A DNA stretch of 57,301 nucleotides from an uncultured Clostridia bacterium (GTDB taxonomy: Bacteria; Bacillota; Clostridia; Christensenellales; Borkfalkiaceae): NCBI GenBank assembly GCA_944340905.1, contig CALVLT010000011.1, positions 1-57,301 on the forward strand. The letters run 5' to 3'. The position numbers and the translations under genes are program-made. Below are positions 7,283 through 44,011 of the stretch, in pieces. The notes below the pieces were generated by a model. That model was not told where the DNA came from. It ran no database searches and saw only the letters and a list, made by a program, of their open reading frames with translations. Position 1 is the stretch's first letter. Each line of letters starts with the position of its first letter.

Positions 7283-10200
7283 TCAATTTGCAGTCACATT
7301 GACCGATACTTTTACAAGGCATATATTGCCTGCCTCGTCCACTGCCATAATTCTGAACTCATATCTGCCCGCCTGCGTTGCCAGCACAGAGTTGCTGTTT
7401 CCCGTCAGCGAAAGGAGAACTCCGGACGGGAGACATACAAACTTTCCGACAGTAATCGCATCAGAGGCAGATAAATTATCGCTGACGATAAAGTCCGGTA
7501 TCACAAGAATGTCGCCCACCTTTGCCGTCTTGACAAAATCGTACTCAAATACGATCTCCGGAGGGATATCATCGTCCACAATGAGCGAATATACAAACAA
7601 TGTCTGATTTGTCACCCCGTCGAACGTCTCTTCAGATGCGCTGTATCGGACGGAATAAGTACCATACCGATCGAGCACAATGGTGTATTCCACAGTCGGA
7701 TCGACCCCTTGGAGCACCCTTCCGTTGACATCCGTAACGTAGTTTCCTGCGGGATCCGTCACGGAAACCTCAAAGGAGACCGTGGGGTTGAGTACGTCCG
7801 AAGCAAGAGCCGCAGGCAGCGTCACCTGTTCTCCGAGTAATTTTGCGCCGCCGTAAGAGGATGCCACCGAAATTTTTGGTCCGATAATGTCATACGGGGC
7901 AGCATTGACACTGTGATTGTCGATTTGAGTGACAAGATAAGCCGACGATGCATTTGCTCCGCAGAAACGCACGTTCACGCACAGCCGTCCGGAAGGAAAA
8001 CCTGCGAAGGGTACCCCGCCCGATGTGACAGAAACAGAGGTGGAGCCGAGGTTCACCGTCCCCTTGCGGTACCCGATCGTAAAACTGCCGCCGCCATTGA
8101 AGGATGCTGCAATCTCCACGGTATGATCTCCCACGATCAGACGCGCGCCATCCGGGCTTGTATTTTCCAAATATAATTCAAGCGCACGGGAGCGATCCTG
8201 TTCATCGTAGAGACGAATGAGCAGCCCGTCAAAAAAGGAAGCGCCCGAAATCCCCTTTATGGTCAGTTCAAAGTTCTCCGCAACCAAAGCGTTGGCAAAT
8301 GTCCATTCTCCGTCCGCATCTCCTGCATTCCTCACCGTAAGCCCGTCATCCGAAAGGCCGTAAGACACTCCGGTTCCATAAAAATAATTTTCAAGCCGCA
8401 GGCGGATGGTGTCATCTTCTGTTTCCGATCCAATGACCACAGGCAGCCGGACAACATACGGCTCAGCATTGCCGCACTCAAAAGAAATGGTAGCAATCTC
8501 ACCGTTATATGTTGCCGCAGGGGCAAATGTTTCACCGTACGAATAGTACTGCGTCCCGTTTGCGTCTGTCAGTTTCAGCATGGCAATCCGTCTGACCAAT
8601 GTTCCGGAACTATAATCATTTGCATACACTTCGGGAACGGTATAGACGGCACCAGAAACCAACACTTCCGGCAAAACGGGAACCTCCACAAAAACAGGTT
8701 CGTCTCCGCGCACGATCGATACGGTATAGCTTTCGGTATCCGCCTGTCCGATATAGTCCGTGACGCTGTATGTCAACGTAAATGTTCCTTCCGTTTCAGG
8801 GCGAAAATACCGCACTTGCGTCAAATCCGTGACGGCGCCGGAAGGATCCGTCAGCGTGATCGTTACGGTCTTTTCTCCGCTCCCTCCTTCCCCAAGCGTA
8901 TAATCGGCACAGGCGATCAGATGTCCCATGGCGCCCTCCGTCACGCGCTCCTGTGAAATCGCGATCGACACCGGAGATATTCCTTCCGCAACGGCGTCTA
9001 CTGTTAAAAATTTCGTTGCCGTATTTCCGGAACGATCGGCGGCCTCGTACAAAATGACATAGGTCCCCGCGCGGCTTGTACGGAATTTTCCGTCCTCAAT
9101 GGCAACGGATACCGCATTGGAAGAAAAATAATTGAACCAGACGCTCACATTCACTTCACATGTTCCGGAATACATGTCATATGCCGTGGCAACGGGGATG
9201 GGATAGAGATAATTCCCTCCCGCAATTGTTTGCGGCATCTCATCCGTCTGTACGTCGATCGTGATTTCCGGCTCCTGCTCATCGGAGAAAGACTCGGCCT
9301 GCAGATCGACCCCCATGACACTGTAAATACAAAAGTTTGCGGTGTCGGCAGTATAACTGTCGGCGGTAATGGACAGCCGCACTTTTCCGGAAGGAAATCC
9401 CGTCCACAGGTTGTCGTTTACGAAATGGGTCGGATTGTCAAAATCGACAACCGTATACAGCGTGCCCGCCGATTCACAGTACAGGATATTTGCACTTGTG
9501 TCGAACCTGAAATCGAGATGAAGTTCATCAAACGGCGCCTGAAATGTTCCGCGATTACCGACGAAGGAATGCGGTACCTGCGCGCCATATTTGTTTGCGA
9601 CGTGCACCTTGCCCGTCTGACTTTCGTACCCGGTCAGTTGCTGACCGTTTCCCGCGGCAAGAATATAGGTCGCCTGTGTATTGGCATCCAGTGAACCCTG
9701 CGGCGATATCGTCATGGTTATATCGGGATCAACCGCGTCCGTCAACGTAATATACAGGCGGTTGAAATCCCCGATCCCGAGCGTATCCGGCGTTGCGAAT
9801 AATCCGATCACTGTATCCGAAGATGTCGCTCCGCTCAAATCGATGATTTGGGGAAATGACAGTGTATCGCCCTGTGCCAAGCGCACCATCAGGCCGTTTC
9901 TTGTAATGCGCTCCGCCTCCTGCGGATCGGAGGGAACCCATTTCCCCCAGACAGCAGACGATTGATCCCCCACCAGAACGGCGGGAAGGGTTACATCAAA
10001 TTCCACGTCCTCGGCATATGCCGTGCCGTCCTGTCTGGCGGTGTAATGCACGGTGTAGCGTCCTTCCGTATCAAGCACCACAGTGGTCCTGCGTGTAGCG
10101 CTTCCATCCGGATACTCCAGAACAGAACTTGCGGCAAATGTTTTTCCTCCCGCAGTCACGGTGCGTTGCGGGATTTCAAGCACCGTATTCAATGAATATG

Positions 10201-29611: not shown

Positions 29612-31486
29612 TTATTTGTTCCTGCGCGACTTTCTGAGCCTCAGGCAAACGCCCAGCCCTGCAACGCCTGCAGCAAGCGCCAGGAATCCGATGCCTGCAC
29701 CGGAGATCGAACCGCCGCATCCGCCTGATCCGGAATCAGAAGGCGTACCGGATTCGTTGCCGGAATCGACCGCCGTAACCGTGATGGATTGCGGCGTTTT
29801 CTTGCGCTGGTAGTCGATCACGACCGACGTATCTCCCACGGCGAGCACGTCTTTACTGACGGTATAGTCTGTGATCTCAGCCTCTTTGCCGCTTTCATAT
29901 ACCGCAATGACGACCATGCCCGTCCTATCGAAGGATTCTCCCGCGACATACGTCGTCTTTGTGGGCGGCGTTTCGATCCGGATGCTTACGACCGTATCCG
30001 CAACAGCAGTGACTTCAACCGTTTTTGTAATGATTTCTCCCCCATACTCCGCAGTATATATGATGACATATGTTCCTGCCGTCTGAACGGTGAAAGCCCC
30101 TTCCGGAGCATCGACCGGCGACCCGTTCAGAGTAACGGACACATCGATGGAAATATCCTGCACCTCTTCACCGTTATCCATCAGAACAGCCCCGGGAAGA
30201 ACGACCTCCTCCCCCTCATAGACCTTTGCTGCGGGCATGCCGTCAAGCGCGATATAAGGCAGTTCATCAACGGTGATGTCTGCCGTACGCACGGTGACAT
30301 TGCCTTTGACGGTAACAAAGGTGAGAGCAAGCGTGTAATCGCCCGCCTCGGGCATCGTAAAGGAGATAGCGGCCTGGCCCGCCTTGCCCCAACTGTCCTT
30401 GTGCAACGTATCGGAGACCACACTGCCATCCTGTCTGGAGAGCGTCACACGGATACCGCTGTTTGTTTCCTCTCCTTTTGCTCCGTCCGAATTCCAGCCG
30501 ATGTCACCCATCAGCCCCAGATGGATCAGAGCATACACGGCCGGATCGTTTTCGGGCGCCGCAGTATTGACGGCCGCATCGTTTGCCGCAACGCTGACCA
30601 ATTCAAAGGTATAGGTCTCTCCTTTTAAAAAGTTGCTCTCACGCATTTTGAGCGAAGAAACGTTGAAACTGTCGGAAACGGTCAGCGCACCGTCTTTCAG
30701 GCATAGGTCCTGTCCGTTGAGTTCTTTGAGGACGACTTTCGTCGACGTGACCCCTGCCGTCTCCCATTCATGCCTCACCGCCTGCACGCGCGTGATCTCC
30801 TCCACAGTGATGGCAGAGAGCGCGGCATCGAACTGTCCGTCATCCGCTACCGCTTGGTAGGAGACAGCGGGTTCCGCTCCGTCGGTGTCTACGATATCGG
30901 CATACCAGCCCTTTTCAAGATCAAATCCAAGCCTGACGCCGCTGCCTTCTTCCATGCAGGACTTCGGAAGCTGAATCGAAGAAAGAGATTCGCTTCCGAC
31001 GGAAAAGTCGGCGCTCACATAGTTGTTATTATCATAGGAGTCTCCCCATATCGTAACGGCGGCAATTGTCGAACTTGCATTCATCAGATTGATGGTCATC
31101 TTGCGAACATATGCCGTATCGTCCGCCGTATCGGCTCTGTTGTAATAGGGGATGCCGAACACCATCTCAAAGCGCGCGCCGTCTGCAACGGACATGGGGC
31201 CGTTGATGAGGTTCATTGCGTTGCTGTTCGTACCCTCGATGACAACACCGTTCCCGGTATAGGTGACGCTGCCCGCATTGCTCCAATAATCGAACATCTG
31301 CTTCCACGGGTTACTGCTCACTGTGCCCGCGTTGAGCGTCTCCGCAGTGAGCGTAACGGATGCAGGAGCATTGTCCGCCGCCTGCGCCTGTGCGGACAGT
31401 CCTTGTACGCTGTCCACGCCGATGGTGCCGCCCGCCAACAATGCGCAGGCAAGCATAGTGCTTACAAACATGCTTTTCACTTTCAT
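29612..31486 (-). CDS. Secreted surface protein with Ig-like domains and GGCGG-TM tail
   Basis: This 624-residue protein has a signal peptide (hydrophobic ~8-24, likely cleavage after QAQAA near 37). A first beta-sandwich region (~45-230) precedes a segment with LKELNGQDLC (~255) that is shared with the neighbouring 495-residue lipoprotein. Ig-like domains follow, the last of Big_3/Big_4 type (TKTTYVAGESFDRTGMVVIAV). The C-terminus is GSGGCGGSI, a hydrophobic helix and RKSRRNK, which should anchor it in the membrane or wall. It is the last gene of the leftward operon that starts with the AraC-hydrolase fusion. GGGAG precedes ATG 31486. Its ligand is unknown; carbohydrate binding is inferred from the operon. 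Confidence 0.75.
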   Translation of the reverse strand: MKVKSMFVSTMLACALLAGGTIGVDSVQGLSAQAQAADNAPASVTLTAETLNAGTVSSNPWKQMFDYWSNAGSVTYTGNGVVIEGTNSNAMNLINGPMSVADGARFEMVFGIPYYNRADTADDTAYVRKMTINLMNASSTIAAVTIWGDSYDNNNYVSADFSVGSESLSSIQLPKSCMEEGSGVRLGFDLEKGWYADIVDTDGAEPAVSYQAVADDGQFDAALSAITVEEITRVQAVRHEWETAGVTSTKVVLKELNGQDLCLKDGALTVSDSFNVSSLKMRESNFLKGETYTFELVSVAANDAAVNTAAPENDPAVYALIHLGLMGDIGWNSDGAKGEETNSGIRVTLSRQDGSVVSDTLHKDSWGKAGQAAISFTMPEAGDYTLALTFVTVKGNVTVRTADITVDELPYIALDGMPAAKVYEGEEVVLPGAVLMDNGEEVQDISIDVSVTLNGSPVDAPEGAFTVQTAGTYVIIYTAEYGGEIITKTVEVTAVADTVVSIRIETPPTKTTYVAGESFDRTGMVVIAVYESGKEAEITDYTVSKDVLAVGDTSVVIDYQRKKTPQSITVTAVDSGNESGTPSDSGSGGCGGSISGAGIGFLALAAGVAGLGVCLRLRKSRRNK

Positions 31487-31506: not shown

Positions 31507-32994
31507 TTATGATACGGTGACGCGCCAGACGCGCTCATCCGTTCCGTCCGCACTTTCCGAAGTATATGTAATAATGTAAATTCCGTTGCGATCGAAGGTG
31601 ATCGTTCCCTCTTCGCTGATTTCGACCTCCATTGCCAGCGGATCCTCCACGGTGACGGTATATGTGTAAGCATTGCCGCTTGCATCGGTGCGTTCCCCGT
31701 CCGCATTGGTCACATACGCCGAAGGCAGCCTGAAGGTGGATCCGCGCGATGCCGTTGCGGGGATGTCCCCTTCTATGTTGATGCGATAGGTATCCGCCGC
31801 CGTAAAGGTGCGCTCGGGCGAGGTGTACTCATTCCCGCTCTCGTCGCGCACGACCACCCTGACCTTGTATTCGCCCGCCGCGCCGATGGAAAATGCAAGC
31901 CCTTCCGTTGTGGTCACGCTGCCGTCGGGCGCCGTGATGACAAGCGAATAACTCAGGTTTTTCCAGGAGAGCACGTCAGTCGCAAAGGAGGAATAGAGCA
32001 CCGTGTCCCTGCCCGCCTCCGATGCCTCGTTGGTCTTGACCTCATACGTATAATCGGTGTATGCGGCAAGACTCTTGCCCTCCACAAGCTCGGGCGGAGC
32101 GATATAGGGCGCGCAGTCATCCTTGATGCGCCCGTCCGCCGTACACAGGTTCTGTCCGTTGATCTCTTTGAGCACAAAGCAGGAGGACGCCTCGAATCCG
32201 GTCATGCCCTCGTTGACAAGGTCCTCGCGCGTCTTGCCCGAGAAACGAAACACCGCACTGACAGACTGAACGTCTGCAAACAGTTCCTTCATGCCGTCGA
32301 TGACCTTCTTGTCCGTCTCCTTCGTTTCGTCGAGCAGAGGTACAAGCGTTTCGCCGTCCCCGTCCACATAGCTCTGAAAGAGGTTTTCTTTGTCGAACAC
32401 CACGGTAAAGGGCATGGAGGCGCGCATGTTGCCCGTGACCTTCTTCCCGTCCGCATAAGGATACGTTGCCGCTTCTTCCGCAAAGGAAGTATCGTAGGTC
32501 GCCGATTCGCCGTTCAGGCGGTATGTGATGCGGCTGGAAACGCACACGGCGTCTGGCGAACGCTCTGCCCACAGGCGCAGCTGCGCGGTGGGCCTCTCCG
32601 TTGTCTGTCCGATCAGAAGAATATCCACGCATGTCTTGGTGTGCATATTCACACCTGTGACAAGATAGTCCTCGCTGTCTTCTTCAAAGGTGGGCAGCGC
32701 AAACGTGCACGACAGTTTCTCCCCGTCCAGAATGGGGAAACGCATCTTGGAACATGCAGCCTTGAGGTTCTGGATGCCCTCCATCATCAGCCCGTCCGCC
32801 GTGGGCGTGATCTCGAAAATGTTCTCGTGCGCGTATTCGTTCATCAAAGTGAGGTCCATTTCGACCTTCCCGTCCGAGGGAGTCTCTCCCCCGTTCTCTC
32901 CCGTAGAGGCGGAAGGATTTTCCGCACACGCCGCAAACGGGAACGCAGCGCACAGCGCCAGCAACAGCGCCGTCATTGTTTTCCATCCTTTCAT
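31507..32994 (-). CDS. Ig-domain lipoprotein
   Basis: The 495-residue lipoprotein has lipobox FAAC (Cys22). Residues ~50-250 form a beta-sandwich similar in layout to the N-terminus of the protein encoded downstream. LKEINGQNLCTADGRI (~275) parallels LKELNGQDLCLKDGAL of that protein, so the two are diverged paralogues. The C-terminus carries Ig-like domains (AGEYKVRVVVRDESGNEY, FDRNGIYIITYTSESADG). No catalytic motif is seen. AAGGGG lies in the last codons of the upstream hydrolase gene and the start is 6 nt after that stop, indicating translational coupling. It is probably a surface glycan-binding component of this locus. Confidence 0.72.
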   Translation of the reverse strand: MKGWKTMTALLLALCAAFPFAACAENPSASTGENGGETPSDGKVEMDLTLMNEYAHENIFEITPTADGLMMEGIQNLKAACSKMRFPILDGEKLSCTFALPTFEEDSEDYLVTGVNMHTKTCVDILLIGQTTERPTAQLRLWAERSPDAVCVSSRITYRLNGESATYDTSFAEEAATYPYADGKKVTGNMRASMPFTVVFDKENLFQSYVDGDGETLVPLLDETKETDKKVIDGMKELFADVQSVSAVFRFSGKTREDLVNEGMTGFEASSCFVLKEINGQNLCTADGRIKDDCAPYIAPPELVEGKSLAAYTDYTYEVKTNEASEAGRDTVLYSSFATDVLSWKNLSYSLVITAPDGSVTTTEGLAFSIGAAGEYKVRVVVRDESGNEYTSPERTFTAADTYRINIEGDIPATASRGSTFRLPSAYVTNADGERTDASGNAYTYTVTVEDPLAMEVEISEEGTITFDRNGIYIITYTSESADGTDERVWRVTVS

Positions 32995-33000
32995 ACCATG

Positions 33001-34653
33001 TCACCCCTTAAAAAGTTCTGTATTCGACTGCAGCGCGCCCTCCGTCGAAAGGACGGGGATGCGCCATACGCCTTCGCCGCCGAGCGAAATCGTGTTGTTC
33101 TCCAATGCGCGCGTCTCCTGCGACTCCCACGCGCCGCCAACAAAGCTCCCACGCTCCGCCTGTCCGAACGTGCCGTTCCCCAGCGTGAGCGTTGCCTCCC
33201 CCGACGCATAGACGTACACGTACCCGTCCTGCACGATGGCAAAGCCCTTGGCGCCCTGCGTCGTCGTGAAGGTAAAGGAGACCGAAGTGGTATTCACCGT
33301 CTTGCTCCACGTCTCCCGCCCCGTGGAACTGTCCACATTGAACGCCGCAAAGTCGGCAGGGTTGACGCTTGCGGCAACCGGAGATACCGCCCTGAGCGCA
33401 AAGCACATGCTGCGGATCGCCTGTGTGTAGGAGTAATCCTCCAGCGTGTAGGCATCGATGATGCCCTGCGAGTAGCCGCCTTCGTCAAACGCTTTGGGCG
33501 AGGCAAGTTCATAGAGGATATAGCCGCAGTTGAGCGAGATGCTCAACAAAATTTCCCCGTCGCCGTTGACATAGGTTCCCTCGCCCGTGGTGCCCGTTCT
33601 GCCGTTTTCGGCAATGTGCGTGAAATTCTGCGGCAGCTGCGCCTGATAATACTGAATGGACGTCTTGAGATCGGTCAGGTTATTGAAGTAGGGATCGAAC
33701 CCCACGGCATCCAGACTCTCAAGGGCATACAGCTGCTGTGCCCGCTCGATGGGCGAAGGGCCGGGCGAGCTGAGATCGGCGCAGGCGGGGCGCAGAAGAT
33801 TGGTGCGCGTGATCACCTGATAGGGCGAGGATTTGAATGCCTTTGCGCAGTTCTCCATCGCCGTGCAGACGGTGTTCCACGCCTCGTCTTTGGTGAGCTT
33901 TTTCCCGTTCAGGCTGACGTCGTACGCGTCCAGCCGCACCTCCGGAAAGGCGTCCGCTTCGTTGTACACCTGCACGCCGATGAGCACTTTGGGGAAGGAG
34001 CGCGCCTCCTCCCAGGCATAGATGTGCGCCATGAGCGCCTCCACCACCTTGCGCTCCCGTTCCATGAAGGTCTCGTCGTCGATGCGCAGAAAGGTGCGTT
34101 CGCCGTAGATGGTGGAATTTTCTATGCTCGTTGCCTCCAGCCCGCCGACATACATCTGATAGCGGGGCGTCTCCTCGAAGATATAGTCGGGCAGGTGCCA
34201 CTCGTGCGAATCCCCGCACATGAGCGCCGAATACCACAAGAGTTCGATCTTGATGTCGTATTCGAGCGCATAACCGAGAATGCGGTTGATCACCGTAAAG
34301 TCATACACGTCCTTTTCCGTCTCGATGTCCGCCCAGTCGACGGAGACCGCCAGCACGTTGAACCCCAGATCGGCCGCCGCCTTGATATACTTTTCATAAT
34401 CTTCGTAGGAAGCCCTGTCGCAGTTGACGTAGGCCTCGAAACGACTCTCCGCGCCGAGATACAGAAACGGCTCCCCTCCCACGAGGAAGGTCTCCGTTCC
34501 GTCCGCATTGCGGCGGATCTCGGAGGCGATCACCGTATTCTCGGGCAGATCGTTTCCGCCGTCATCGCCGCCCCCTTCGCTGCAGCCTGCCAGCGGCGAA
34601 ACCGCGCACACGGCAGCCAAGGCAAGTGAACTCCACGTTCCCTTCTTTCTCAT
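33001..34653 (-). CDS. GH-A clan glycosidase-like lipoprotein (beta-galactosidase-type barrel)
   Basis: This ~550-residue lipoprotein (lipobox PLAGC) contains a TIM-barrel glycosidase domain: GEPFLYLGAESRFEAY at the start, LGFNVLAVSVDWADIE, an acid/base candidate in QVYNEAD (Asn-Glu) and a nucleophile candidate in HIAENGRTG. This layout matches retaining GH-A clan enzymes such as GH35/GH42-like or DUF4978-type proteins. The last ~100 residues are a small beta domain. It should act outside the cell on a glycan taken up by the ABC importer encoded upstream. ATG 34653 follows AAAGGAGG; earlier in-frame codons precede the signal peptide and are excluded. Substrate specificity is unknown. Confidence 0.75.
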   Translation of the reverse strand: MRKKGTWSSLALAAVCAVSPLAGCSEGGGDDGGNDLPENTVIASEIRRNADGTETFLVGGEPFLYLGAESRFEAYVNCDRASYEDYEKYIKAAADLGFNVLAVSVDWADIETEKDVYDFTVINRILGYALEYDIKIELLWYSALMCGDSHEWHLPDYIFEETPRYQMYVGGLEATSIENSTIYGERTFLRIDDETFMERERKVVEALMAHIYAWEEARSFPKVLIGVQVYNEADAFPEVRLDAYDVSLNGKKLTKDEAWNTVCTAMENCAKAFKSSPYQVITRTNLLRPACADLSSPGPSPIERAQQLYALESLDAVGFDPYFNNLTDLKTSIQYYQAQLPQNFTHIAENGRTGTTGEGTYVNGDGEILLSISLNCGYILYELASPKAFDEGGYSQGIIDAYTLEDYSYTQAIRSMCFALRAVSPVAASVNPADFAAFNVDSSTGRETWSKTVNTTSVSFTFTTTQGAKGFAIVQDGYVYVYASGEATLTLGNGTFGQAERGSFVGGAWESQETRALENNTISLGGEGVWRIPVLSTEGALQSNTELFKG

Positions 34654-34690
34654 CTTTTCCTCCTTTCCGCCCACAGAGCGGGAATACAAT

Positions 34691-35593
34691 TCATTCTTTG
34701 ACGCTCGTCGTCACGATGCCCTTCATGAACACCTTCTGCGCGCTGAACAGCAACACCAGAAGGGGCAGCGTGTACAGCGTGCAGCCCGCCATCTGCAGCT
34801 GTTTTTCCGTGGACGTGGTGCTGCCCGAAAACTGTCCGATGGAGAGTGCGAGCGTGAACAGACTCTTATCGGTCAGATAGATGCTCGGCCCCACGTAGTC
34901 GCTCCAGGAACCCGTCACCGCAAAAATAAGCATGGTGGCGAGGATGGGCTTCATGTTGGGAACGAGGATGCGGATCAAAATGCCGAGGCTGGAACAGCCG
35001 TCCAGCTCCGCCGCCTCGTCGATGGCTTTAGGAATGCCGCGCATGAAATTGCGCAGCATGTAGATATTGAAGGCGCTCCCGCTGATGGCGGGCAGGATGA
35101 GGGGCAGCCTGCGCACGAATTCAGAACTTGAACCGATAAAACCGAGTTCGGCAAAGATGACATAATTGGGCACCATCGTCACGATCCACGGCAGCATCAT
35201 GGTGGATAACAGCAACAGGAAGAACGGCTCGGTATACTTATTTTTGAACCGCGCGAACCCGTATGCCACGAGCACGGACGACGCCATCTGCAGCAGCGTC
35301 GACGTGCACAGGATCAGCATCGTGTTGCCCAGCGCGTTCCAGAAATCCATCACGCGCATCGCCTCCGCATAGTTGCCGATATTGGCAAAGCTGGGCGCGA
35401 CGAGCGGCCAGGAGGTGACGGTATCCGAAGTCGTCTGCAGCGATCCGTACACCATGAACAAAAAGGGAACAAAGAAGATCACCGAAAGCGCGATGGTCAC
35501 GATGTACAAGACCGTGCGCGCCGTGATGCGCCTGACGCGATATGCCGCGCTATGTACCGCTTTCCCCGGTTTGACAGCCATTCTATGCATCAT
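34691..35593 (-). CDS. Carbohydrate ABC transporter permease, MalG type
   Basis: This ~300-residue CUT1-family membrane permease has the EAA loop EAAELDGCSSLGILIRILVP and a typical tail (FSAQKVFMKGIVTTSVKE). It pairs with the MalF-type subunit encoded just upstream. The ATG at 35593 overlaps the TGA of that gene in an ATGA arrangement, so the proteins are translationally coupled. A second ATG follows immediately at 35590 and another at 35581. No ATPase gene is present in the operon. Confidence 0.9.
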   Translation of the reverse strand: MMHRMAVKPGKAVHSAAYRVRRITARTVLYIVTIALSVIFFVPFLFMVYGSLQTTSDTVTSWPLVAPSFANIGNYAEAMRVMDFWNALGNTMLILCTSTLLQMASSVLVAYGFARFKNKYTEPFFLLLLSTMMLPWIVTMVPNYVIFAELGFIGSSSEFVRRLPLILPAISGSAFNIYMLRNFMRGIPKAIDEAAELDGCSSLGILIRILVPNMKPILATMLIFAVTGSWSDYVGPSIYLTDKSLFTLALSIGQFSGSTTSTEKQLQMAGCTLYTLPLLVLLFSAQKVFMKGIVTTSVKE

Positions 35594-36519
35594 TCGTCTC
35601 CGTAATATACTTTCCTGTCCACCAGTTTGAGATAGATCAGCGTAAAGAGCATGATGATCAGAAAGATGATCCATGCCTCGGCACATGCGTAGCCCAGCGC
35701 CAGATTCCCGTTCGTCGCGTTATAGCGGGAGAGCACCGTCATCGTCATAGTGATGGTGGCATATTCGGGGTCTCCGCCCGTGAGGAGCTGTACATTGGCA
35801 TACGTCTGCAGCGCACCGATGAACCCCGTGACCGAAATAAACATCAGTCCCGAACTGATCATGGGGATCGTGATGTGCCAGAACCGCGTCATGCGCCCCG
35901 CGCCGTCGATGATGGCGGCCTCCTCCAGCTCTTTCGGTACGCCCTGCAGCGCCGCGAGTACAACGATCATCGTGGAACCGACGCTGCAGAACAGGTCAAG
36001 CGAAACCACGGTGAGCAGCGCGGTGGACTTGGAAAACAGATCGACGCCGTGAATGCCTATTGCCGCAAAGATGCGCTGCACGAGGGCGGAATCCCCCTTC
36101 AGCATGAGGATCCAGATGGCGGACGCCGCCGTGACGGGAATGAGCGAAGGCGCGTACGCCATCGTGCGGTACAGCCGCTTGCCGCGCAGGTCGTTGTTGT
36201 AGAGCAGCGCGAGCAACGTGGCGCCGAGAATGCCGCCGAACACGCGGATAAAGGCGTAGAGGAAGGTATTGCCCACCGAGCGCAGGAATACGCTGTCCTG
36301 TGTAAAGATATAGATATAGTTGCGCAGGGAAAATTCCAGCGGCTCGCTCGTCCATGTCGTGATCCTCGTCCCCCACGTAAAACCGAGCACCAGGGACAGA
36401 ACCATGGGGACAAGCGAGAAGAGGGCAAACCCGATGAGCCAGGGCGAGATGAACAGAAAGAATTTGCGCTCCTTCATCTTCTCCCGCGATGCCCTGCGCC
36501 TCGTTTGCGTCTTCACCAT
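35590..36519 (-). CDS. Carbohydrate ABC transporter permease, MalF type
   Basis: This 309-residue integral membrane protein has an N-terminal segment FFLFISPWLIGFALFSLVP and the EAA motif EEAAIIDGAGRMTRFWHITIP. With the MalG-type protein it forms the translocation channel for the cargo bound by the lipoprotein encoded upstream. GGAGG precedes ATG 36519, 17 nt after the stop of the binding-protein gene. Family assignment is firm; substrate is unknown. Confidence 0.92.
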   Translation of the reverse strand: MVKTQTRRRASREKMKERKFFLFISPWLIGFALFSLVPMVLSLVLGFTWGTRITTWTSEPLEFSLRNYIYIFTQDSVFLRSVGNTFLYAFIRVFGGILGATLLALLYNNDLRGKRLYRTMAYAPSLIPVTAASAIWILMLKGDSALVQRIFAAIGIHGVDLFSKSTALLTVVSLDLFCSVGSTMIVVLAALQGVPKELEEAAIIDGAGRMTRFWHITIPMISSGLMFISVTGFIGALQTYANVQLLTGGDPEYATITMTMTVLSRYNATNGNLALGYACAEAWIIFLIIMLFTLIYLKLVDRKVYYGDE

Positions 36520-36536: not shown

Positions 36537-38087
36537 TCAGATCAGGGCGGTAGCGATCTCCGAATTGATATTGTTACCCGCCATACGCAGCGCCTCTTCC
36601 ACCGTCATATTGCCGTCCGCCGCACTCGTGAGATACGTCTTGAGGTACCCGTCCGCCACGGAATTATCGATATACTTCGTGAACGTGAGCGGATGCGTAT
36701 AGTCCGCAAGCCAGATATACCAGTTGTTCAGCTTGCTTGTACGCTCGTCCGAAGCGTTGAGAAAATCTTCGCCCGTTGCGATCGTTCTGTTCCCGGGGAG
36801 ATTGAATCCTTTGTTCAGGGTTGCCCGCGTACCTGCCGTCATGTAATAGCGGATGAATTTCCAGGCGAGGTCGGCATTTCCCGTTCTTGCGCTGACGGCA
36901 AGCCCGATCGCCACCGAGGAGCAGTAGACGTTGCCGCTGTCCTCTTCCCCGTCGCCGTCCGCGTCCGTGCCCATCGTCTTGGTGGGAGGGGGCGCCAGCC
37001 CGAAATCGATCGTCGACCAGCTTGGCTTTGCAAACTTCCAGCGGCCGTACCAGACCACCGCCACGTTGCCCTTGGGGAAGTCGGCATCCGAACTGACAGA
37101 GGAAACGCCGAATACTCCGGTGCTTGCAAGCGGCCCCTGCTGATAATTGATGAAATGCTGATATGCCTCGGCAAGGGCTTCGTCCTGCACCCCGCTCGTG
37201 CTGTAGTTGAAACTCGTGCCGTCCTCGCTGTAAATGGGTGCGCCGTTCATCTCTGCCTGCATCTGGGCAAATTTGAGCGGATCGTTGTCGAGAATGGTGC
37301 CGTAGATCTCGCGTATACCGTCGCTGTTGTAGGTCGTGAGCAGGAAACACATCAGTTCATTTTGCAGCCAGCTCATCGGAATGGTTTCGGAGGGATACTT
37401 CCCCGTCTCGTCCGTAGGATACCCCACGATCTCGGCGAGCGTGCGCCCGACCACCTTCGTCCCGCGCAGCGAGGCGTATTGTGGATCGTCCGCGGAAATT
37501 GCGGCGAGCTTATCCTCCGCCGCCTGTTTCACCGCCTGCGTGTAGTTGCCCGTTTCGGCGTCGAACTCGTCGATGAGCGCCTTGTTGTACACCATGGCAA
37601 AGTCGGGCGACCAATCCTTGATGACGGCATACAGGTCCCCGCTGCCCATCTGATCGTTTTCTTCGTTGTAACGGTAGCCGTCGTTGATGCTCCACAGATC
37701 CTCTTCTGTGAACGTGAGCCCGTCGTCGTACTCCGCTTCGATATAGGGCTGCAGGTTTTCGAGAAGGCCGTCGCGGATATAGCTTTCAATGGTGCCGCCC
37801 TGCATCCAGAACACGTCCGCCTCGCTCCTGCCCGAAAAGGAGAGCTGCAGGTTCCTGTAATAATCGTTGGAGTAGTGCACGAGCTCCACCTGGTACCCTT
37901 CGTCAGCGTACAGTGCCTCAAACCCGTCCACGATCTGATTGATGATGGCAAGCTCGTCCGTGCTGCCCCAAACGGCGTAGGTCAGCGTCTTGCCGTCGCC
38001 TGCCCGTCCGGCGCAGGCGGTCATACCCGCCAGCATCAGTGCCGAGAGCGCGACCGCTCCCATCTTTCTGCATCCTTGTCTTTTCAT
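36537..38087 (-). CDS. Extracellular solute-binding lipoprotein of sugar ABC importer
   Basis: The 516-residue protein has a lipoprotein signal peptide (lipobox MTAC, Cys25) followed by a family 1 solute-binding protein body: TLTYAVWGSTDELAIINQIV, ADVFWMQGG and DFPKGNVAVVWYGRWKF are characteristic segments. It presents a sugar or oligosaccharide to the permeases encoded next. Its ATG overlaps the stop of the AraC-nucleoside hydrolase gene (ATGA), so transport and the fused regulator are made from the same mRNA with coupled translation. Confidence 0.92.
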   Translation of the reverse strand: MKRQGCRKMGAVALSALMLAGMTACAGRAGDGKTLTYAVWGSTDELAIINQIVDGFEALYADEGYQVELVHYSNDYYRNLQLSFSGRSEADVFWMQGGTIESYIRDGLLENLQPYIEAEYDDGLTFTEEDLWSINDGYRYNEENDQMGSGDLYAVIKDWSPDFAMVYNKALIDEFDAETGNYTQAVKQAAEDKLAAISADDPQYASLRGTKVVGRTLAEIVGYPTDETGKYPSETIPMSWLQNELMCFLLTTYNSDGIREIYGTILDNDPLKFAQMQAEMNGAPIYSEDGTSFNYSTSGVQDEALAEAYQHFINYQQGPLASTGVFGVSSVSSDADFPKGNVAVVWYGRWKFAKPSWSTIDFGLAPPPTKTMGTDADGDGEEDSGNVYCSSVAIGLAVSARTGNADLAWKFIRYYMTAGTRATLNKGFNLPGNRTIATGEDFLNASDERTSKLNNWYIWLADYTHPLTFTKYIDNSVADGYLKTYLTSAADGNMTVEEALRMAGNNINSEIATALI

Positions 38088-39838
38088 CGTTCTGCCTCCC
38101 CTGTTCCGATCAAAATTTCATTTATCTGCTCGGTAGCGTCCTTCACCTTCCTTAGCTCGAGGAACCTGTGCCTGCCGCTGCCCGGGCAAAACGTCGTTAC
38201 ACCCGCATCGCTTACGTGCACCGTGCCGTATTCGGACGCCGCAAACATTCCGCCGCTGCCCAGCATGGCGTAGAGCACGGTGATGATGTCCCAGCTCTCC
38301 CTGTCTTCGACGCCGAACAGCTCATAGATGCGTGCCACGGGATTTTTGCGCAATTCCTTCAGAACGCCGCCCGTAAGCACTTTCAGCCCCTGATTGAAAT
38401 CGATGAACTCCAGGGGAAGGTCGGCAAACGACGTCACCTTCTGCGCGCTCTCCACGTCCAGTCCGATGTTGAACTCCGCCGTAAATTTCTGTTCGCGAAA
38501 AATATAGTACTCCCCGTTCTGGGAAAAATTGCCGCCCATGATGACGATCTTTGCGACCTTCTCGCGCACGAGCATCTCCCCTTCCTGCGTGGAAAGCAGC
38601 TTTGCCAGATTGTTCAGCTGCCCGATGAACACCATCGTGACAGAACCCGGCTGCGCTCCGCGCAGTTTTTCCTGCATCAGCCGCACGGCGGGGCGCAGTT
38701 TTTTGCTTCTGTCAAACTCGTCGCGCAGTTTATAGACATAACGCGGCATGTACTTTTCCGCCGGTACGCGGGAATTATCCGATACGCCAATGTCAAAATC
38801 GTTGCCGTAATAACTGTTGATCCAGCCGATGGCGCGCGCGGCGTCGGGATCGTTCAGGCTCTGCGTCATGCAGAGCACGTTGACCATCTTTTTGCGGTGG
38901 AATACGTTGACGATCGCAATTGCCGCGGCGTCGTCGCAGTCGCACCCGAGGTCGGTGTCAAGTATCAAATCAGCCATGTGTTCTTTCTCCTGGATATCGG
39001 AAAGATTGAGTACGACGCCCCATTTGAGCCTCTTGTTCATATCGCGGTATTTCAAAGGGGAAACGCCCGCCATCTTACCGAACCATTCGCAAAAACGCAC
39101 GCTGCTGCCCAGCCCCGTCTTTGCCGCGATCTCCGAGATCTTCATATCGGTGACCGCAAGCTGCTGTTTGGCATAGTTGAAACGCAGGCCCTGCTGAAAC
39201 GCATACAGCGTCATGCCCGTATATTCATAAAAAATGTGGCGGAAACGGTCATAGGAATAGCCGAAACTCTCCGCCAGAATGGGAAAATCGATCTTGGCGG
39301 AAAAGTGCTTGCGGATATACGATTTGACCGCGGTCACAATGTCGGTATAGTAATATTTTCCGCCCTTCTCAGACTGAGAGATCAGGCGGCACAGATCAAT
39401 GCCGAGGCGGGAAAGCAATTCGTCGAGACAGGTTTCGGCATTGCGGTCAGGTCCTGCCTTGAGCAGGCAATAGAGTCGGTTGATCTCCAGCATGCGGCTC
39501 TTGATGCGGCCGAACAGTTCCGCCGTCTTTACCGTTTTTTTGAAGAAGTGCGGCTGTGCAAACGCATCCCCTTCCACGTCCACTTGATTGCACACGATCT
39601 CCGTCTCCGTCGCCGCATACTCGTCGTGCTTGTGATGCGGGGGGATCACGGCGATGGAATCCTCGTCAAAGCGGAAATTATACAGTGTTTCGCCGTAGAT
39701 GTTGGCGAGCCCCTTTCCGCGGATATAGTAGACGACCTCGGTGTGATCGTGACTGTGCGGCGTCACGTAGTCGGTCTGTTTGTGGCTGTATGCGATTGAG
39801 CCGGCCGAATATGCTGTAAACGGCTGTTGTTCGTTCAT
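38084..39838 (-). CDS. AraC-type transcription factor fused to a nucleoside hydrolase-like domain
   Basis: One continuous frame of ~584 residues encodes two complete proteins. Residues 1-~285 are an AraC regulator: cupin sensor (YVTPHSHDHTEVVYYIRGKG, VIPPHHKHDEY) and helix-turn-helix pair (FPILAESFGYSYDRFRHIFYEY, ISEIAAKTGLGSSVRFCEWF). From residue 288 a full IUNH-type hydrolase follows: metal and ribose-binding DTDLGCDCDD, the EFN motif in TAEFNIGLDVESA, and ESWDIITVLYA near the end. The linker (SDIQEKEH) is encoded by a GGAGAAAG ribosome-binding-like sequence before an internal ATG at 38977, so the hydrolase may also be made alone. ATG 39838 follows GGGAGG. The gene heads an ABC-importer operon. 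Hydrolysis of a nucleoside or other N-glycoside linked to sensing is inference. Confidence 0.88.
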   Translation of the reverse strand: MNEQQPFTAYSAGSIAYSHKQTDYVTPHSHDHTEVVYYIRGKGLANIYGETLYNFRFDEDSIAVIPPHHKHDEYAATETEIVCNQVDVEGDAFAQPHFFKKTVKTAELFGRIKSRMLEINRLYCLLKAGPDRNAETCLDELLSRLGIDLCRLISQSEKGGKYYYTDIVTAVKSYIRKHFSAKIDFPILAESFGYSYDRFRHIFYEYTGMTLYAFQQGLRFNYAKQQLAVTDMKISEIAAKTGLGSSVRFCEWFGKMAGVSPLKYRDMNKRLKWGVVLNLSDIQEKEHMADLILDTDLGCDCDDAAAIAIVNVFHRKKMVNVLCMTQSLNDPDAARAIGWINSYYGNDFDIGVSDNSRVPAEKYMPRYVYKLRDEFDRSKKLRPAVRLMQEKLRGAQPGSVTMVFIGQLNNLAKLLSTQEGEMLVREKVAKIVIMGGNFSQNGEYYIFREQKFTAEFNIGLDVESAQKVTSFADLPLEFIDFNQGLKVLTGGVLKELRKNPVARIYELFGVEDRESWDIITVLYAMLGSGGMFAASEYGTVHVSDAGVTTFCPGSGRHRFLELRKVKDATEQINEILIGTGEAER

Positions 39839-39880: not shown

Positions 39881-39936
39881 ATTATAACACATATAAATTC
39901 CGAAATGTGGCTAACTGTTTCTGCCATAAATTGGCA
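39881..39936 (-). promoter_or_regulatory. Promoter and candidate operator of the AraC-hydrolase operon
   Basis: A minus-strand TATAAT (39881-39886) lies 17 nt from a poor -35 box (CACATT, 39904-39909), as expected for an activator-dependent promoter. TGCCA-TAAAT-TGGCA (39922-39936) is a 5-bp-arm palindrome centred about 55 nt upstream of the predicted start. The remainder of the 341-nt gap 39839-40179 holds the divergent promoter and nothing else I recognise. Confidence 0.5.
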
Positions 39937-40125
39937 ATTACACAAAAAAAGGCATTTGCAGCGGTTTTATATTCCGCTTTTTGGCTGACTTCTGTACAAT
40001 GTATCCGACAGGCTCGCCGTCCGCACGCCCTGCAGATACCCCTCTTTTTTTCAAATATATCATATTGCCGTTCCGCTTTGTGGCTGAACTTGCCCACCCC
40101 TCGGTGGAAAAACGAGCGGGAAACC

Positions 40126-40153: not shown

Positions 40154-40179
40154 GGAAAAAAACGATGGGAGGCTGCAAT

Positions 40180-41946
40180 ATGGCACCCGAACAGATCATC
40201 GAATGTGATTTTGCCGTCATCGGCGCAGGCATGGCGGGTATTTCGGCGGCGATCGCCGCGGCAAGACGGGGGCTGAAAGTGTGCCTCGTGCACGACCGCC
40301 CCGTGCTGGGCGGCAACGCCTCGGAGGAGGTGCGCATGTGGATCCGCGGCGCGAGCGACCACTTCCCCTTCTATCGCGAGGGCGGCATCCTTGAAGAACT
40401 CGCCCTCGACAACGCCCGCTACAATCCCGACATGACCTTTCCCCTGTGGAGCATGGTGCTCTACAACAAGGTCACGGCAGAGCCGAACATCACGCTCCTG
40501 CTCAACACCGTGTGCCTGGGGGCAGCGTGCAGGGAGGGGCGCATCGGGCAAATTTCCGCCTTCTGCCTGACGAGCTATGAACGTTTTTGCGTCCGCGCGG
40601 CTTACTTTGCCGACTGTTCGGGCGACAGCATTCTTGCCGAGGCAACGGGCGCCGACTTCACACGCGGGCGGGAGGATGCGGCGCAGTACGGCGAATCGCT
40701 CGGCAGAGCGGTGTGCGACGGCTGCACCATGGGGAACAGCCTGCTGCTGCAGGCGGTGGAGACGGACGCCCCCGTCACATTCACCCCGCCGCCCTTTGCC
40801 AAAAAATTCAGCGAAGAGGACTTCCGCTACCGCCTGAACACGGACGCCCGCATGGGATTTATCGCCAACAACTACTGGTGGATCGAACTCGGCGGCGAGG
40901 GCGATACGCTGCGCGACGCGAGGGACATTCATGCCGAACTGCTTGCGACTGTATACGGAGTGTGGGACTTCGTCAAGAACAGCGGCAAATTCGACGCGGA
41001 AACCTGGGATCTGCACTTTGTAGGCGCGCTGCCCGCCAAACGGGAGACGCGGCGCTACCTCGGAGACTACGTGCTCTCCCAGAGGGACATCGACGAAGGG
41101 ACGCCCTTCGAGGACGAGGCCGCATACGGCGGCTGGACGATGGACGACCATTCCCCCCTGGGATTTCGCGGCGGGCAAAAGCCCAACACCTTCCACCCCA
41201 TTCCCGCGCCCTACGCCATCCCCTGGCGCTGCCTCTATTCGCGCAACGTCTCCAATCTCGCCTTTGCAGGACGAAATATCAGCGTCACGCACCTTGCGCT
41301 CTCCTCCACCCGCGTCATGGCGACCTGCGCCATGCTGGGACAGGCGGTGGGAACGGTGGTCTCCTTTGCGCAGCCGCGCGGCCTGACCTTGCGCGAGGCG
41401 GGCGCTTACGCCGCCCAGTGGAAACAGATGCTGCGCGACGACGACTGCTATCTGCTGCATACGCCGCGAAAGACCTTTCTCACGCCCGGACGCATCCGCA
41501 CAAACGCATCGCGCGAACAGATGCGCGTTCTTTTCAGCGGCATTGAGCGCGAACTGGACGATGGAGACGCCCCCGCCGTTTTCCCCCTGCATACGCCTCT
41601 TGAACATACCTTTGAGAGCGTGTATGTCCAAAAAATACGCATCCTGTTCGACAGCGATATTGCGTCCTCCGAGCGCCGCGACCGCGAACTGAAGATGTAC
41701 CCCATGCGCTTCCATGTTCCGAAAAACAGGGAACGTGTTCATGTTCCTTCTGCACTCATACAAAAATATACCCTCTCCGTGCTTACGGAGAGGGGCTGGG
41801 AGATCGTGGAACGGGCGCAGGACAACTTCTCCCGCCTGCGCTATGTGGAGATCGGCCGCAGGATCGGCGGAATACGGCTCGTCGGCGAGGGATGCCGCGG
41901 AACGGGCAGTGCGCTCAGGCTGTTCTCGCTGGACGTCATCGTCTGA
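40180..41946 (+). CDS. FAD-dependent oxidoreductase (FAD_oxidored family)
   Basis: The 588-residue protein begins with a Rossmann dinucleotide fold (CDFAVIGAGMAGISAAIAAA) and the second motif VLGGNASEEVRMW. A later FAD-contact segment (LAFAGRNISVTHLALSSTRV ... GQAVGTV) is also present. The family is abundant in gut polysaccharide loci and is thought to oxidise sugars or sugar derivatives, though the reaction is rarely known. There is no signal peptide. The start is set by GGGAGG at ~40163-40170; an earlier ATG overlaps that site. It is divergent from the AraC-hydrolase operon and its stop abuts the stop of the convergent GH42 gene with no terminator between. Confidence 0.82.
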   Translation: MAPEQIIECDFAVIGAGMAGISAAIAAARRGLKVCLVHDRPVLGGNASEEVRMWIRGASDHFPFYREGGILEELALDNARYNPDMTFPLWSMVLYNKVTAEPNITLLLNTVCLGAACREGRIGQISAFCLTSYERFCVRAAYFADCSGDSILAEATGADFTRGREDAAQYGESLGRAVCDGCTMGNSLLLQAVETDAPVTFTPPPFAKKFSEEDFRYRLNTDARMGFIANNYWWIELGGEGDTLRDARDIHAELLATVYGVWDFVKNSGKFDAETWDLHFVGALPAKRETRRYLGDYVLSQRDIDEGTPFEDEAAYGGWTMDDHSPLGFRGGQKPNTFHPIPAPYAIPWRCLYSRNVSNLAFAGRNISVTHLALSSTRVMATCAMLGQAVGTVVSFAQPRGLTLREAGAYAAQWKQMLRDDDCYLLHTPRKTFLTPGRIRTNASREQMRVLFSGIERELDDGDAPAVFPLHTPLEHTFESVYVQKIRILFDSDIASSERRDRELKMYPMRFHVPKNRERVHVPSALIQKYTLSVLTERGWEIVERAQDNFSRLRYVEIGRRIGGIRLVGEGCRGTGSALRLFSLDVIV

Positions 41947-43947
41947 TCATCGTCTGCATCTGAACACCCGCACGTCGAACGGTTCCACCGTCAGACGGCG
42001 GGTGCTTTTTTTGCTCTCCAGATCGACACAGCCGTCGGGAAGAGCGACCTCCTGCGCCTGCGCCGAATAATTTTCCACAAACAGATATGCGGCGTCCTCC
42101 CCGATCCGCCTGTGCGCCGTGACGCCATCGGGCAGGGTCTGCGCATCGGGCAGGCAAAACGGGATGCGGCACTGTGCGAGAAGATACCCCAAAAAATCTT
42201 TCTGGAATTTTCCGCCAACACCGAATGCCTGATAGTACGCCCTCCCCCTGCCATAGCCGTGGACGGTGACGCAGGGCATTCCGGCATAGAATTCCGAATC
42301 ATACCATCCGAGCGCCTGCGCCCCCTTCAGGTGCAGGAGTTCGCAGTAACCGCCTGCCTCGTAGCGCTCCCCGTTCCAGGTGAGCGCTACGCGCTCCTCC
42401 GGAAAGAGCGCATCCGTTTCCTCGTTGCAGATGCCGAACACCTCCTTCAGCGTCCCGCCGGGGAACCCGCCGAGATGGCACAGATCGTTCTCGTCCGCCA
42501 TCCCGAGAAATCCCGCCGCCACAAGCGTGCCGCCCCTCTCCACATAGGAGGTAAGATTTTCTTCCGTCTTTTTGTCCGTCATGTACTGCCATACGGCGAT
42601 CACCAGCGAATAGCGGGAGAGGTCGGCGTGCGGATGCACGATATCGCAGGCGACCGCCTGCTGCCACAGTGCCTCATAGCAGGAAAGGACTGCGGCCCTG
42701 TAGTCCTTGTTCTGCATGAACGCACGGGTCCCCTCAAGCGCCCACATATTTTCCCAATCGAAGAGGATCGCCACCCGTGCGGGGGCGGTCTGGCTTCCGG
42801 AGATCTCCCCGAGCGTTTCGAGCGCGCTGCCGGTGGCGGATACCTCGCGGAATACGCGCGTATCGGACGTGCCGCCATGCCCGACGATCGCCCCGTGGAA
42901 CTTTTCCGTACCGCCGCGCGACGCGCGCCACTGGAAATACAGCACGCTCTCGCTCCCGTGCGCCACCGCCTGAAGCGCCGCCATTCTGTTGACGCCCGGG
43001 CGCTGCAGTTTGTTGACCTGTTTCCAGTTCACCCAGCCGGGCGCGCTCTCCATCAGATAGTACGCCTTCCCCTTCAGCGAACGGAAAAAGTCATGCCAGA
43101 ATGCGGAAAACGCCGCCTCATGCAGGTGTTCGGGTGCGTTCCAGCCCGGATAGTTGTCCCAGGAAATAATATCCAGATGCTCGGCAAACTTCTGATAATC
43201 CAGTCCGTAGTAGCCTGGCATCATGTTGGTCGTCACGGGAAGGTGCGTCGCATACTTTCTGACCGCCGCGATCTCTTCCTTCATAAAATCCACCGTCTGA
43301 TATGTCACGAATCTGCGCCAGTCGAGCACGAGCGCGGGGACGGAGTTTTCCCCCGATGCGCCCGGAGGGTCGATCTGAGAGAAATCGTCATAGGTATGGC
43401 TCCAGAATTTTGACCAGTAGGCGCGGTTGAGCGCCCCGATGCTGCCGTACCGGCTGCGCAGGTACCGCCGGAATGCGTCGCGGCAGAGCGCACAGTAACA
43501 TTCGCCGGAAAATTCGTTGGAGATGTGCCAGGCGATGACGGCGGGATGATTTGCGTAGCGGCGCGCAAGCTGTTCGTCGATGGCGCGTACCTTTTCCCGA
43601 TAGACGGGCGACGTGTAACAGTGATTGTGCCTGCCGCCGAAACGCAGGGACAGGCCGTTTTCCTGCGTGCGCAGGACTTCGGGATATTTGTCCGCCATCC
43701 AATGCGGCCTGGCGCCGCTCGGCGTTGCCAGAATCACCTTTTTGCCGCTTTGAAAGAGCCTGTCGATCGTCTCGTCGAAAAAGGAAAAGTCGTACTCGCC
43801 CTCGCGCGGCTCCAGTTCCGACCAGGCGAATACGCCCAGCGTCACCGTGTTGACGTGCGCCTCATCCATAAGGCGCAGGTCCTCCCCGAGGATCTCCTTT
43901 TCTTCCTTCCACTGCTCGGGGTTGTAGTCCCCGCCGTACAAAAACAT
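41947..43947 (-). CDS. GH42-type beta-galactosidase
   Basis: The ~666-residue protein opens with the family start FLYGGDYNPEQW. It has the acid/base Glu in WHISNEFSGECYC, nearby cysteines (CYCALC) as in the zinc site of GH42, and the nucleophile Glu in YYLMESAPGWVNW. It then continues into the trimerisation and beta-sandwich domains. It would release beta-linked galactose from short oligosaccharides in the cytoplasm; no signal peptide is present. ATG 43947 follows GGGAGGGCGGCG. Fifteen in-frame codons before it lie between the promoter boxes and start site and are not translated. It is a single-gene unit convergent with the FAD oxidoreductase. Confidence 0.9.
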   Translation of the reverse strand: MFLYGGDYNPEQWKEEKEILGEDLRLMDEAHVNTVTLGVFAWSELEPREGEYDFSFFDETIDRLFQSGKKVILATPSGARPHWMADKYPEVLRTQENGLSLRFGGRHNHCYTSPVYREKVRAIDEQLARRYANHPAVIAWHISNEFSGECYCALCRDAFRRYLRSRYGSIGALNRAYWSKFWSHTYDDFSQIDPPGASGENSVPALVLDWRRFVTYQTVDFMKEEIAAVRKYATHLPVTTNMMPGYYGLDYQKFAEHLDIISWDNYPGWNAPEHLHEAAFSAFWHDFFRSLKGKAYYLMESAPGWVNWKQVNKLQRPGVNRMAALQAVAHGSESVLYFQWRASRGGTEKFHGAIVGHGGTSDTRVFREVSATGSALETLGEISGSQTAPARVAILFDWENMWALEGTRAFMQNKDYRAAVLSCYEALWQQAVACDIVHPHADLSRYSLVIAVWQYMTDKKTEENLTSYVERGGTLVAAGFLGMADENDLCHLGGFPGGTLKEVFGICNEETDALFPEERVALTWNGERYEAGGYCELLHLKGAQALGWYDSEFYAGMPCVTVHGYGRGRAYYQAFGVGGKFQKDFLGYLLAQCRIPFCLPDAQTLPDGVTAHRRIGEDAAYLFVENYSAQAQEVALPDGCVDLESKKSTRRLTVEPFDVRVFRCRR

Positions 43948-43982
43948 CGCCGCCCTCCCGCTTTTCAGCTTTTCTGCGATAG

Positions 43983-44011
43983 AATATATCATATCAGTCC
44001 CCCGCTGTCAA
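43983..44011 (-). promoter_or_regulatory. Promoter of the GH42 gene
   Basis: Minus-strand TTGACA (44006-44011), 17 nt and TATATT (43983-43988). Confidence 0.7.

Follow-up and report, generated by a model that had tools for sequence, protein, structure and literature searches.

What does a protein do that joins an AraC-type transcription regulator to a nucleoside hydrolase in one reading frame? The question is raised by a gene in a 57,301-nucleotide stretch of DNA (contig CALVLT010000011.1, assembly GCA_944340905.1; hereafter the window) from an uncultured Clostridia bacterium of the family Borkfalkiaceae. Our analysis supports a working AraC-type activator that would control its own operon and that carries an apparently competent hydrolase. 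Specifically, we rate as somewhat more probable than its negation a bifunctional, autoregulated one-component regulator, in which the AraC half would activate its own operon, the hydrolase half (IUNH family) would cleave an imported N-glycoside or a related compound, and the two halves would be coupled; this coupling is the least certain step.

The gene and its parts are as follows.

38084..39838, minus strand: AraC-IUNH fusion gene, 584 amino acids plus stop (open frame, Pfam, homologous fusions)
39029..39838, minus strand: AraC half, residues 1-270, cupin sensor and AraC-type helix-turn-helix region (AraC_binding at 18-94, HTH_18 at 188-266; Foldseek)
39041..39277, minus strand: HTH_18 DNA-binding domain, residues 188-266 (61.1 bits against a cut-off of 33.6)
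38978..39028, minus strand: linker, residues 271-287 (low model confidence at 271-285; junction sequences)
38087..38977, minus strand: nucleoside-hydrolase (IUNH) half, residues 288-584

The open frame, the Pfam matches and the homologous fusions confirm an in-frame fusion of two intact-looking modules, as a sequence-only reading of this DNA had claimed; its orientation has to be corrected, since the fusion gene and its operon lie on the minus strand. In the AraC half, both HTH_18 and AraC_binding exceed their cut-offs, placing the protein in the AraC/XylS family, while the HTH_AraC profile scores 24.8 bits, under its cut-off of 26.6; Foldseek matches include ToxT, Rns and CsvR. The C-terminal half belongs to the IUNH family (PF01156) by both profile and fold, and structure comparison shows that it adopts the full IUNH fold. 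A 602-amino-acid version starting at 39892 was set aside because that start falls inside the promoter.

Fused AraC-IUNH frames are present in five proteins from four genomes: the window fusion; L060 (record Lapin-023 bin33), which is 58% identical over residues 8-581 in a scan of genome contigs; L061 (51% identity) and L062, both loci of genome G192 (RGIG4110, Roe_deer_Cecum); and L063 of genome G051 (CASETU010000137.1). The L060 frame is open far upstream, and its start was taken at 9983, 56 nucleotides after its operator-like box. In a draw of 301 genomes of the family, matches across both halves came, among the matches listed, from three genomes (the window's own, G192 and G051). The two fused proteins of G192 lie on G192:C16 (51% identity) and G192:C23; the match on the latter stopped at residue 347, and its 561-codon frame runs on through both halves. 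A TGA flagged within the G051 match proved, from its coordinates, to be the gene's own stop at the match end. In the three other fusions whose active site is intact, the IUNH half is nearer to the window protein than the AraC half is: L060 (64 versus 49%), L061 (55 versus 47%) and L063 (36 versus 33%).

Could the fusion be an assembly or sequencing artefact? The window's genome is fragmented (55 contigs, 84% complete), but recurrence on the contigs of other genomes, at 58% and 51% identity for L060 and L061, refutes this explanation, to which we assign a negligible probability, and rules out a private mutation as well. The sequence-only reading had named a set of close homologues consisting entirely of separate gene pairs, together with a stop codon near 38980 on resequencing, as the sign of an artefact or a private mutation, and L060 and L061 are both fused; the recurrence beside the same ABC (ATP-binding cassette) genes that it had proposed to look for is found in L060, L061 and L063. 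The fusion appears rare in the genomes sampled. A profile search of 57 genomes of G192's genus and five of G051's genus gave no extra fusion (E up to 1e-35), and the window's fusion was the only one in draws of 396 genomes of the order (E up to 1e-40), 391 of the class and 398 of the phylum (for the last two, E up to 1e-55). The three draws are partly overlapping samples of larger groups, with the top three candidates scored per genome, so the rarity is only approximate. No plasmid matched the fusion in tblastn at 1e-15, and a single-protein scan of genome contigs gave 27 pattern matches and no relatives.

Is the hydrolase half still an enzyme? Three motifs line its putative active site.

38930..38959, minus strand: DTDLGCDCDD acidic block, residues 294-303 (alignment of 28 IUNH sequences)
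38468..38476, minus strand: EFN motif, residues 455-457 (same alignment)
38288..38302, minus strand: RESWD motif, residues 513-517 (final Asp kept in 28/28 sequences)

The DTDLGCDCDD, EFN and ESWD motifs claimed earlier are all present. Asp294 and Asp296 are kept in every sequence of the alignment, and Asp300, Asp302 and Asp303 in 27 of the 28, the sole loss being L062, which is also gapped at EFN; elsewhere the E and N of that motif are kept (27/28) and the F position is variable. Altogether, the aligned active-site columns are intact in four of the five fused and in all 23 separate IUNH sequences. We equate Asp294, 296, 302, 303 and 517 with Asp8, 10, 14, 15 and 242 of the family's usual numbering, D517 presumably being the Asp242 equivalent. 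The fold matches the nucleoside hydrolases 6ba1, 4kpn, 8qnd and 1mas over the entire half, at 18-22% identity, and the acidic block, EFN and final Asp are common to both. In contrast, the fusion's acidic block, DxDxGxDxDD, is two residues longer than the classical DxDxGxDD, and classical members have HD where the fusion has SWD. With its intact-looking active site, the hydrolase half is apparently competent.

The fifth fusion shows a different state. L062 (9364-10956) joins an AraC half that is 49% identical to that of the window to a pseudo-nucleosidase domain that lacks both catalytic Asp residues of the DD pair as well as the EFN region. Its C-terminal part is an open frame of 245 residues whose fold is predicted to be kept, in a model whose underlying alignment held active relatives, and it shares a genome with the apparently active fusion L061. 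L062 thus suggests an enzyme-like domain serving as a regulator's effector-binding domain, of the type described for BzdR. According to the parts of the source covered here, BzdR joins an XRE-type helix-turn-helix to a shikimate-kinase-like domain, and of BzdR chimeras carrying an active or an inactive enzyme, the inactive one, unlike the active one, answered inducer in vivo (PMC3602430). The retention of the regulator half of L062 after loss of its catalytic residues fits that work.

This precedent raises the reading that in every member the IUNH half serves mainly to sense a ligand, with the active site kept for binding; L062 would be the overt case, and the window protein would hardly catalyse. 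The retained AraC half and predicted C-terminal fold of L062 and the operator-like boxes that precede two of its neighbouring genes (see below) agree with it, as does BzdR itself, but the window protein, L060, L061 and L063 keep all aligned catalytic residues, which binding alone need not demand, and the cupin domain is already a sensor. We consider a mainly sensory role in all members improbable.

What would the enzyme act on? The fusion heads a cluster of genes on the same strand.

36537..38087, minus strand: ABC solute-binding protein (SBP_bac_1, 65.2 bits; its ATG overlaps the fusion stop as ATGA)
35590..36519, minus strand: ABC permease 1 (BPD_transp_1; UgpA/MalF-like below equivalog cut-offs)
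34691..35686, minus strand: ABC permease 2, start uncertain (BPD_transp_1; UgpE/MalG-like below equivalog cut-offs)
33001..34689, minus strand: GH35-like/DUF4978 protein, probably a lipoprotein, start uncertain (DUF4978, 57.2 bits)
31507..32994, minus strand: secreted-looking protein with PKD/Ig-like matches (sub-cut-off Pfam; homologues in L060, L061, L040, L041 and L065)
29612..31486, minus strand: secreted-looking Big_3 surface protein (Big_3, 35.4 bits; also in L060 and L061)

The fusion is followed by the binding protein and two permeases in the window, L060, L061 and L063, with the ATGA overlap in all four, and GH35-like homologues lie near the fusion in these loci and in L062. For the GH35-like protein of the window, Glyco_hydro_35 is under its cut-off, and GH35_fam scores 63.4 bits against a cut-off of 500. 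Across the 28 IUNH places, 15 have a permease homologue on the same strand within 8 kb. The presence of a UgpAE/MalFG-like importer and a GH35-like protein in the operon suggests that the hydrolase half acts on an imported glycoside. For the same reason, and given the longer acidic block, a nucleoside substrate is not established; a nucleoside as the fusion's substrate is an assumption taken from the family name. As a separate observation, the GH35-like/DUF4978 protein recurs with this regulator family, and L063 has three homologues in a row.

Upstream of the cluster, the fusion gene and a divergent gene have an intergenic region of 326 bp in common, which holds three operator-like boxes.

39906..39914, minus strand: promoter-proximal operator-like box TTAGCCACA, 76 nucleotides before the start codon
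39881..39886, minus strand: -10-like hexamer TATAAT, beginning 28 nucleotides downstream of the box start
39980..39988, minus strand: second operator-like box TCAGCCAAA
40079..40087, minus strand: third operator-like box TCAGCCACA
40165..41946, plus strand: divergent FAD-dependent oxidoreductase (FAD_oxidored, 244.6 bits)

The motif comes from a comparison of three intergenic regions, those of the window, L060 and L061; strict scans used T-N-A-[AG]-CCA-[AC]-A. One in 1000 shuffles reaches three boxes in the fusion/oxidoreductase region, a figure that is partly circular since the motif was partly derived there. Three further strict boxes lie elsewhere in the window, where only the clustering and spacing of boxes are unusual. 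The third box lies near the oxidoreductase gene, so this gene may share the control of the fusion; L060 and L061 have it in the same divergent place and also share the PKD and Big_3 proteins. A complete GH42 beta-galactosidase (41947-43992, minus strand; 490.9 bits) adjoins the cluster, and no homologue of it was found in the fetched L060 or L061 neighbourhoods.

Loci outside the motif derivation also carry the box. It precedes the binding-protein gene in L040, L065 and L041 and the GH35-like gene in L043, L044 and L062, lying between divergent AraC and GH35-like genes in L043 and L044; in L062 it also precedes a gene for a long secreted-looking protein, and in L083 a further gene. The L065 and L083 boxes were chosen by eye with relaxed bases. 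Five matches occur in L090. Shuffle tests of the relatives' boxes covered L040, L041, L062 and L065, where 1, 1, 18 and 49 shuffles per 1000, respectively, reach the observed count. Furthermore, a hexamer matching TATAAT at five or more of six positions starts exactly 28 nucleotides downstream at all 12 chosen sites (four used for the motif, eight not), against a background frequency of 0.0185 for such hexamers when four of the same intergenic stretches are pooled. AraC/XylS regulators bind direct-repeat half-sites near the -35 region; here, six of the eight sites outside the derivation (L062b, L040, L065, L041, L043 and L044) have another half-site at a distance of exactly 31 bp upstream, which makes six of the 12 chosen sites.

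From this conserved box and its fixed spacing to a -10-like hexamer, we infer that the AraC half recognises NNARCCACA boxes within the -35 region of its own gene's promoter and activates one transcription unit, comprising the fusion, the binding protein joined to it by the ATGA overlap, the two permeases, the GH35-like protein and the surface proteins. The IUNH half would then cleave an N-glycoside, or a related glycoside, imported by the operon's ABC transporter. Because hydrolase and regulator sit in one self-activated unit, enzyme and activator would be made together, and with the hydrolase carried on the activator itself, events in the IUNH pocket, whether binding or turnover of substrate, would probably shape the regulator's response. 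The coupling could take the form of removal of the inducer, giving self-limiting induction, or of the IUNH half acting as a second sensor; the earlier suggestion that the fusion consumes its own inducer or reports flux is thus plausible.

Several observations weigh against this bifunctional, autoregulated design. Box counts over the whole window are not above chance (3 versus 1.39 expected and 3 versus 2.53 expected), and the half-site 31 bp upstream is present at none of the four derivation sites (window, L060 and L061). The box scan found no box in the expected place in L063, L064 or L042, and the proposed operator therefore does not extend to the second fusion so far. Thirteen of the 28 IUNH places have no same-strand permease homologue within 8 kb; some of the 13 lie on contigs shorter than 7 kb. 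In addition, L062, which is fused yet lacks the DD pair and the EFN region, shows that at least one member can do without catalysis. Finally, residues 271-285 of the predicted model have a predicted local distance difference test score (pLDDT) below 50, and its predicted template modelling score (pTM) is 0.58; with a disordered linker, the model therefore gives no fixed contact between the halves.

Did the two halves belong together before they were fused? The window's own genome holds a paralogous unfused cluster (L040, contig C34, 5531-13834) in the order AraC, binding protein, two permeases, GH35-like protein, PKD protein and IUNH, so that AraC comes first and IUNH last. L065 has the identical order, and L041 has the same gene set with IUNH about 5 kb past the PKD gene. 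L042, which belongs to a different family of the same order, has AraC and IUNH as separate, adjacent genes on one strand. L064, in a metagenome-assembled genome labelled Erysipelotrichaceae, reads AraC, IUNH, binding protein, permease, permease; only a few bases separate its AraC and IUNH genes (235-1966), which are in different frames, and we therefore rejected it as a further fusion, as which a tblastn summary had presented it. The L064 contig is low in GC (28%) and carries the same importer genes, pointing to a possible horizontal transfer of the cluster. Clustered in L040 and L065 and side by side in L042 and L064, the AraC and IUNH partners belong together.

In the AraC tree (23 sequences), a clade supported at 100/100 unites the window, L060, L061 and L062, with L063 apart and its exact place weakly supported. 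In the IUNH tree (28 sequences), a 100/98 branch has these four together on one side, L042 is their neighbour (99/95), and L063 groups with L064 at weak support (80/80); the place of L062 itself is unsure because its branch is about 4.3 changes per column. Of 17 loci from the contig scan, L073, L074 and L076 are not in the trees, and the separate AraC or IUNH loci from the family draw are represented by those fetched; the AraC tree omits the partial matches L079 and L096, and the IUNH tree omits L078 (match values equal to L077) and L092 (overlapping L041). Approximately unbiased (AU) tests reject forcing all fusions into one clade, with p 0.0211 for AraC (five sequences) and p 0.000115 for IUNH (four sequences, L062 being omitted for its long branch); the grouping was defined once the trees had been inspected. 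A single origin is disfavoured accordingly, with fission after one fusion as a possible alternative, and two fusions, each from an adjacent pair, would be the simplest reading.

These origins also bear on a neutral fusion of convenience, in which the loss of a stop codon joined araC to an adjacent hydrolase gene and the halves work independently, at equal dosage and with no regulatory coupling. The neighbouring pairs of L064 and L042, the disordered linker and the preference of the AU tests for at least two fusions all speak for it. Against this, the linker motif WGVVLN is common to the window, L060 and L061 and nearly so to L062 (WGVILN; LGVTLL in L063), the fused state has lasted at 47-49% AraC identity, and the C-terminal half of L062 is still open despite loss of its DD pair. 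We regard a fusion of mere convenience as unlikely, though the strongest competitor of the coupled regulator.

The junction offers one more possibility, namely that the gene yields both the full fusion and a free hydrolase.

38975..38977, minus strand: internal ATG (Met288), weakly supported candidate start of a free hydrolase (AGGAG at 38987-38991)

The AGGAG lies nine bases ahead of this ATG, but among 11 window genes such a site precedes 9 of the 128 in-frame ATGs that are internal and just four of the 11 assigned starts. Moreover, L060, L061, L062 and L063 have no ATG at the Met288 codon, L060 having one two codons before the DTD block. Two products are, in our estimate, very improbable.

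How does the coupled regulator compare with known systems? The view that AraC regulators normally sense but do not catalyse, put forward in the sequence-only reading, is too narrow: regulators with catalysis or enzyme domains exist, among them Ada, PutA, BzdR and the GATase-1 AraC proteins. The helix-turn-helix of Ada is AraC-type, and the GATase-1 domain of AraC regulators is N-terminal and has a non-catalytic sensing role. As far as the sections covered of each source go, Ada is a methyltransferase doubling as a transcriptional activator, but it moves methyl groups from damaged DNA onto itself and has no metabolic substrate (PMC3788762). PutA is a metabolic enzyme and an autogenous regulator of its own regulon, but it is a repressor, with a ribbon-helix-helix domain, and can become a membrane-associated enzyme (PMC5293562). 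GbdR and CdhR are AraC-family proteins with a glutamine amidotransferase-1-like domain (PMC5806209), whereas the window fusion has another enzyme fold, C-terminal and added onto a complete cupin-AraC regulator. BzdR shares with it a DNA-binding domain and an enzyme-derived C-terminal effector domain, but is XRE-type and kinase-like where the window protein is AraC-type and hydrolase-like, and has no second sensor domain in the parts covered (PMC3602430); in addition, natural fusions with and without catalytic residues coexist here. AraC/XylS proteins have 106 different companion domains across 761 genomes, and the main text of that survey contains no word beginning with 'nucleoside' or 'hydrolase' (PMC5882156). 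The statement that no characterised protein of this design is known agrees with the papers listed by the literature searches, judged by titles and abstract openings, with supplements and most subscription papers outside their reach: the AraC-IUNH pairing is described in none of those listed.

The BzdR authors retraced in the laboratory a path by which an enzyme can become a ligand sensor, and note that few experiments address it (PMC3602430). Tentatively, and with somewhat less than even confidence, we read the loci described here as a natural series along such a path, from separate to adjacent genes, to a fusion with an active site that would metabolise its own signal, to a fused pseudo-nucleosidase sensor, with at least two independent fusions. 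Living genomes thus seem to contain the steps from enzyme to sensor, and one genome has two of them, L061 with the active site and L062 without it; whether catalysis must go before sensing is therefore testable with natural proteins. The fusion is also a concrete lead to the inducer and the substrate of a sugar-import operon of gut Clostridia.

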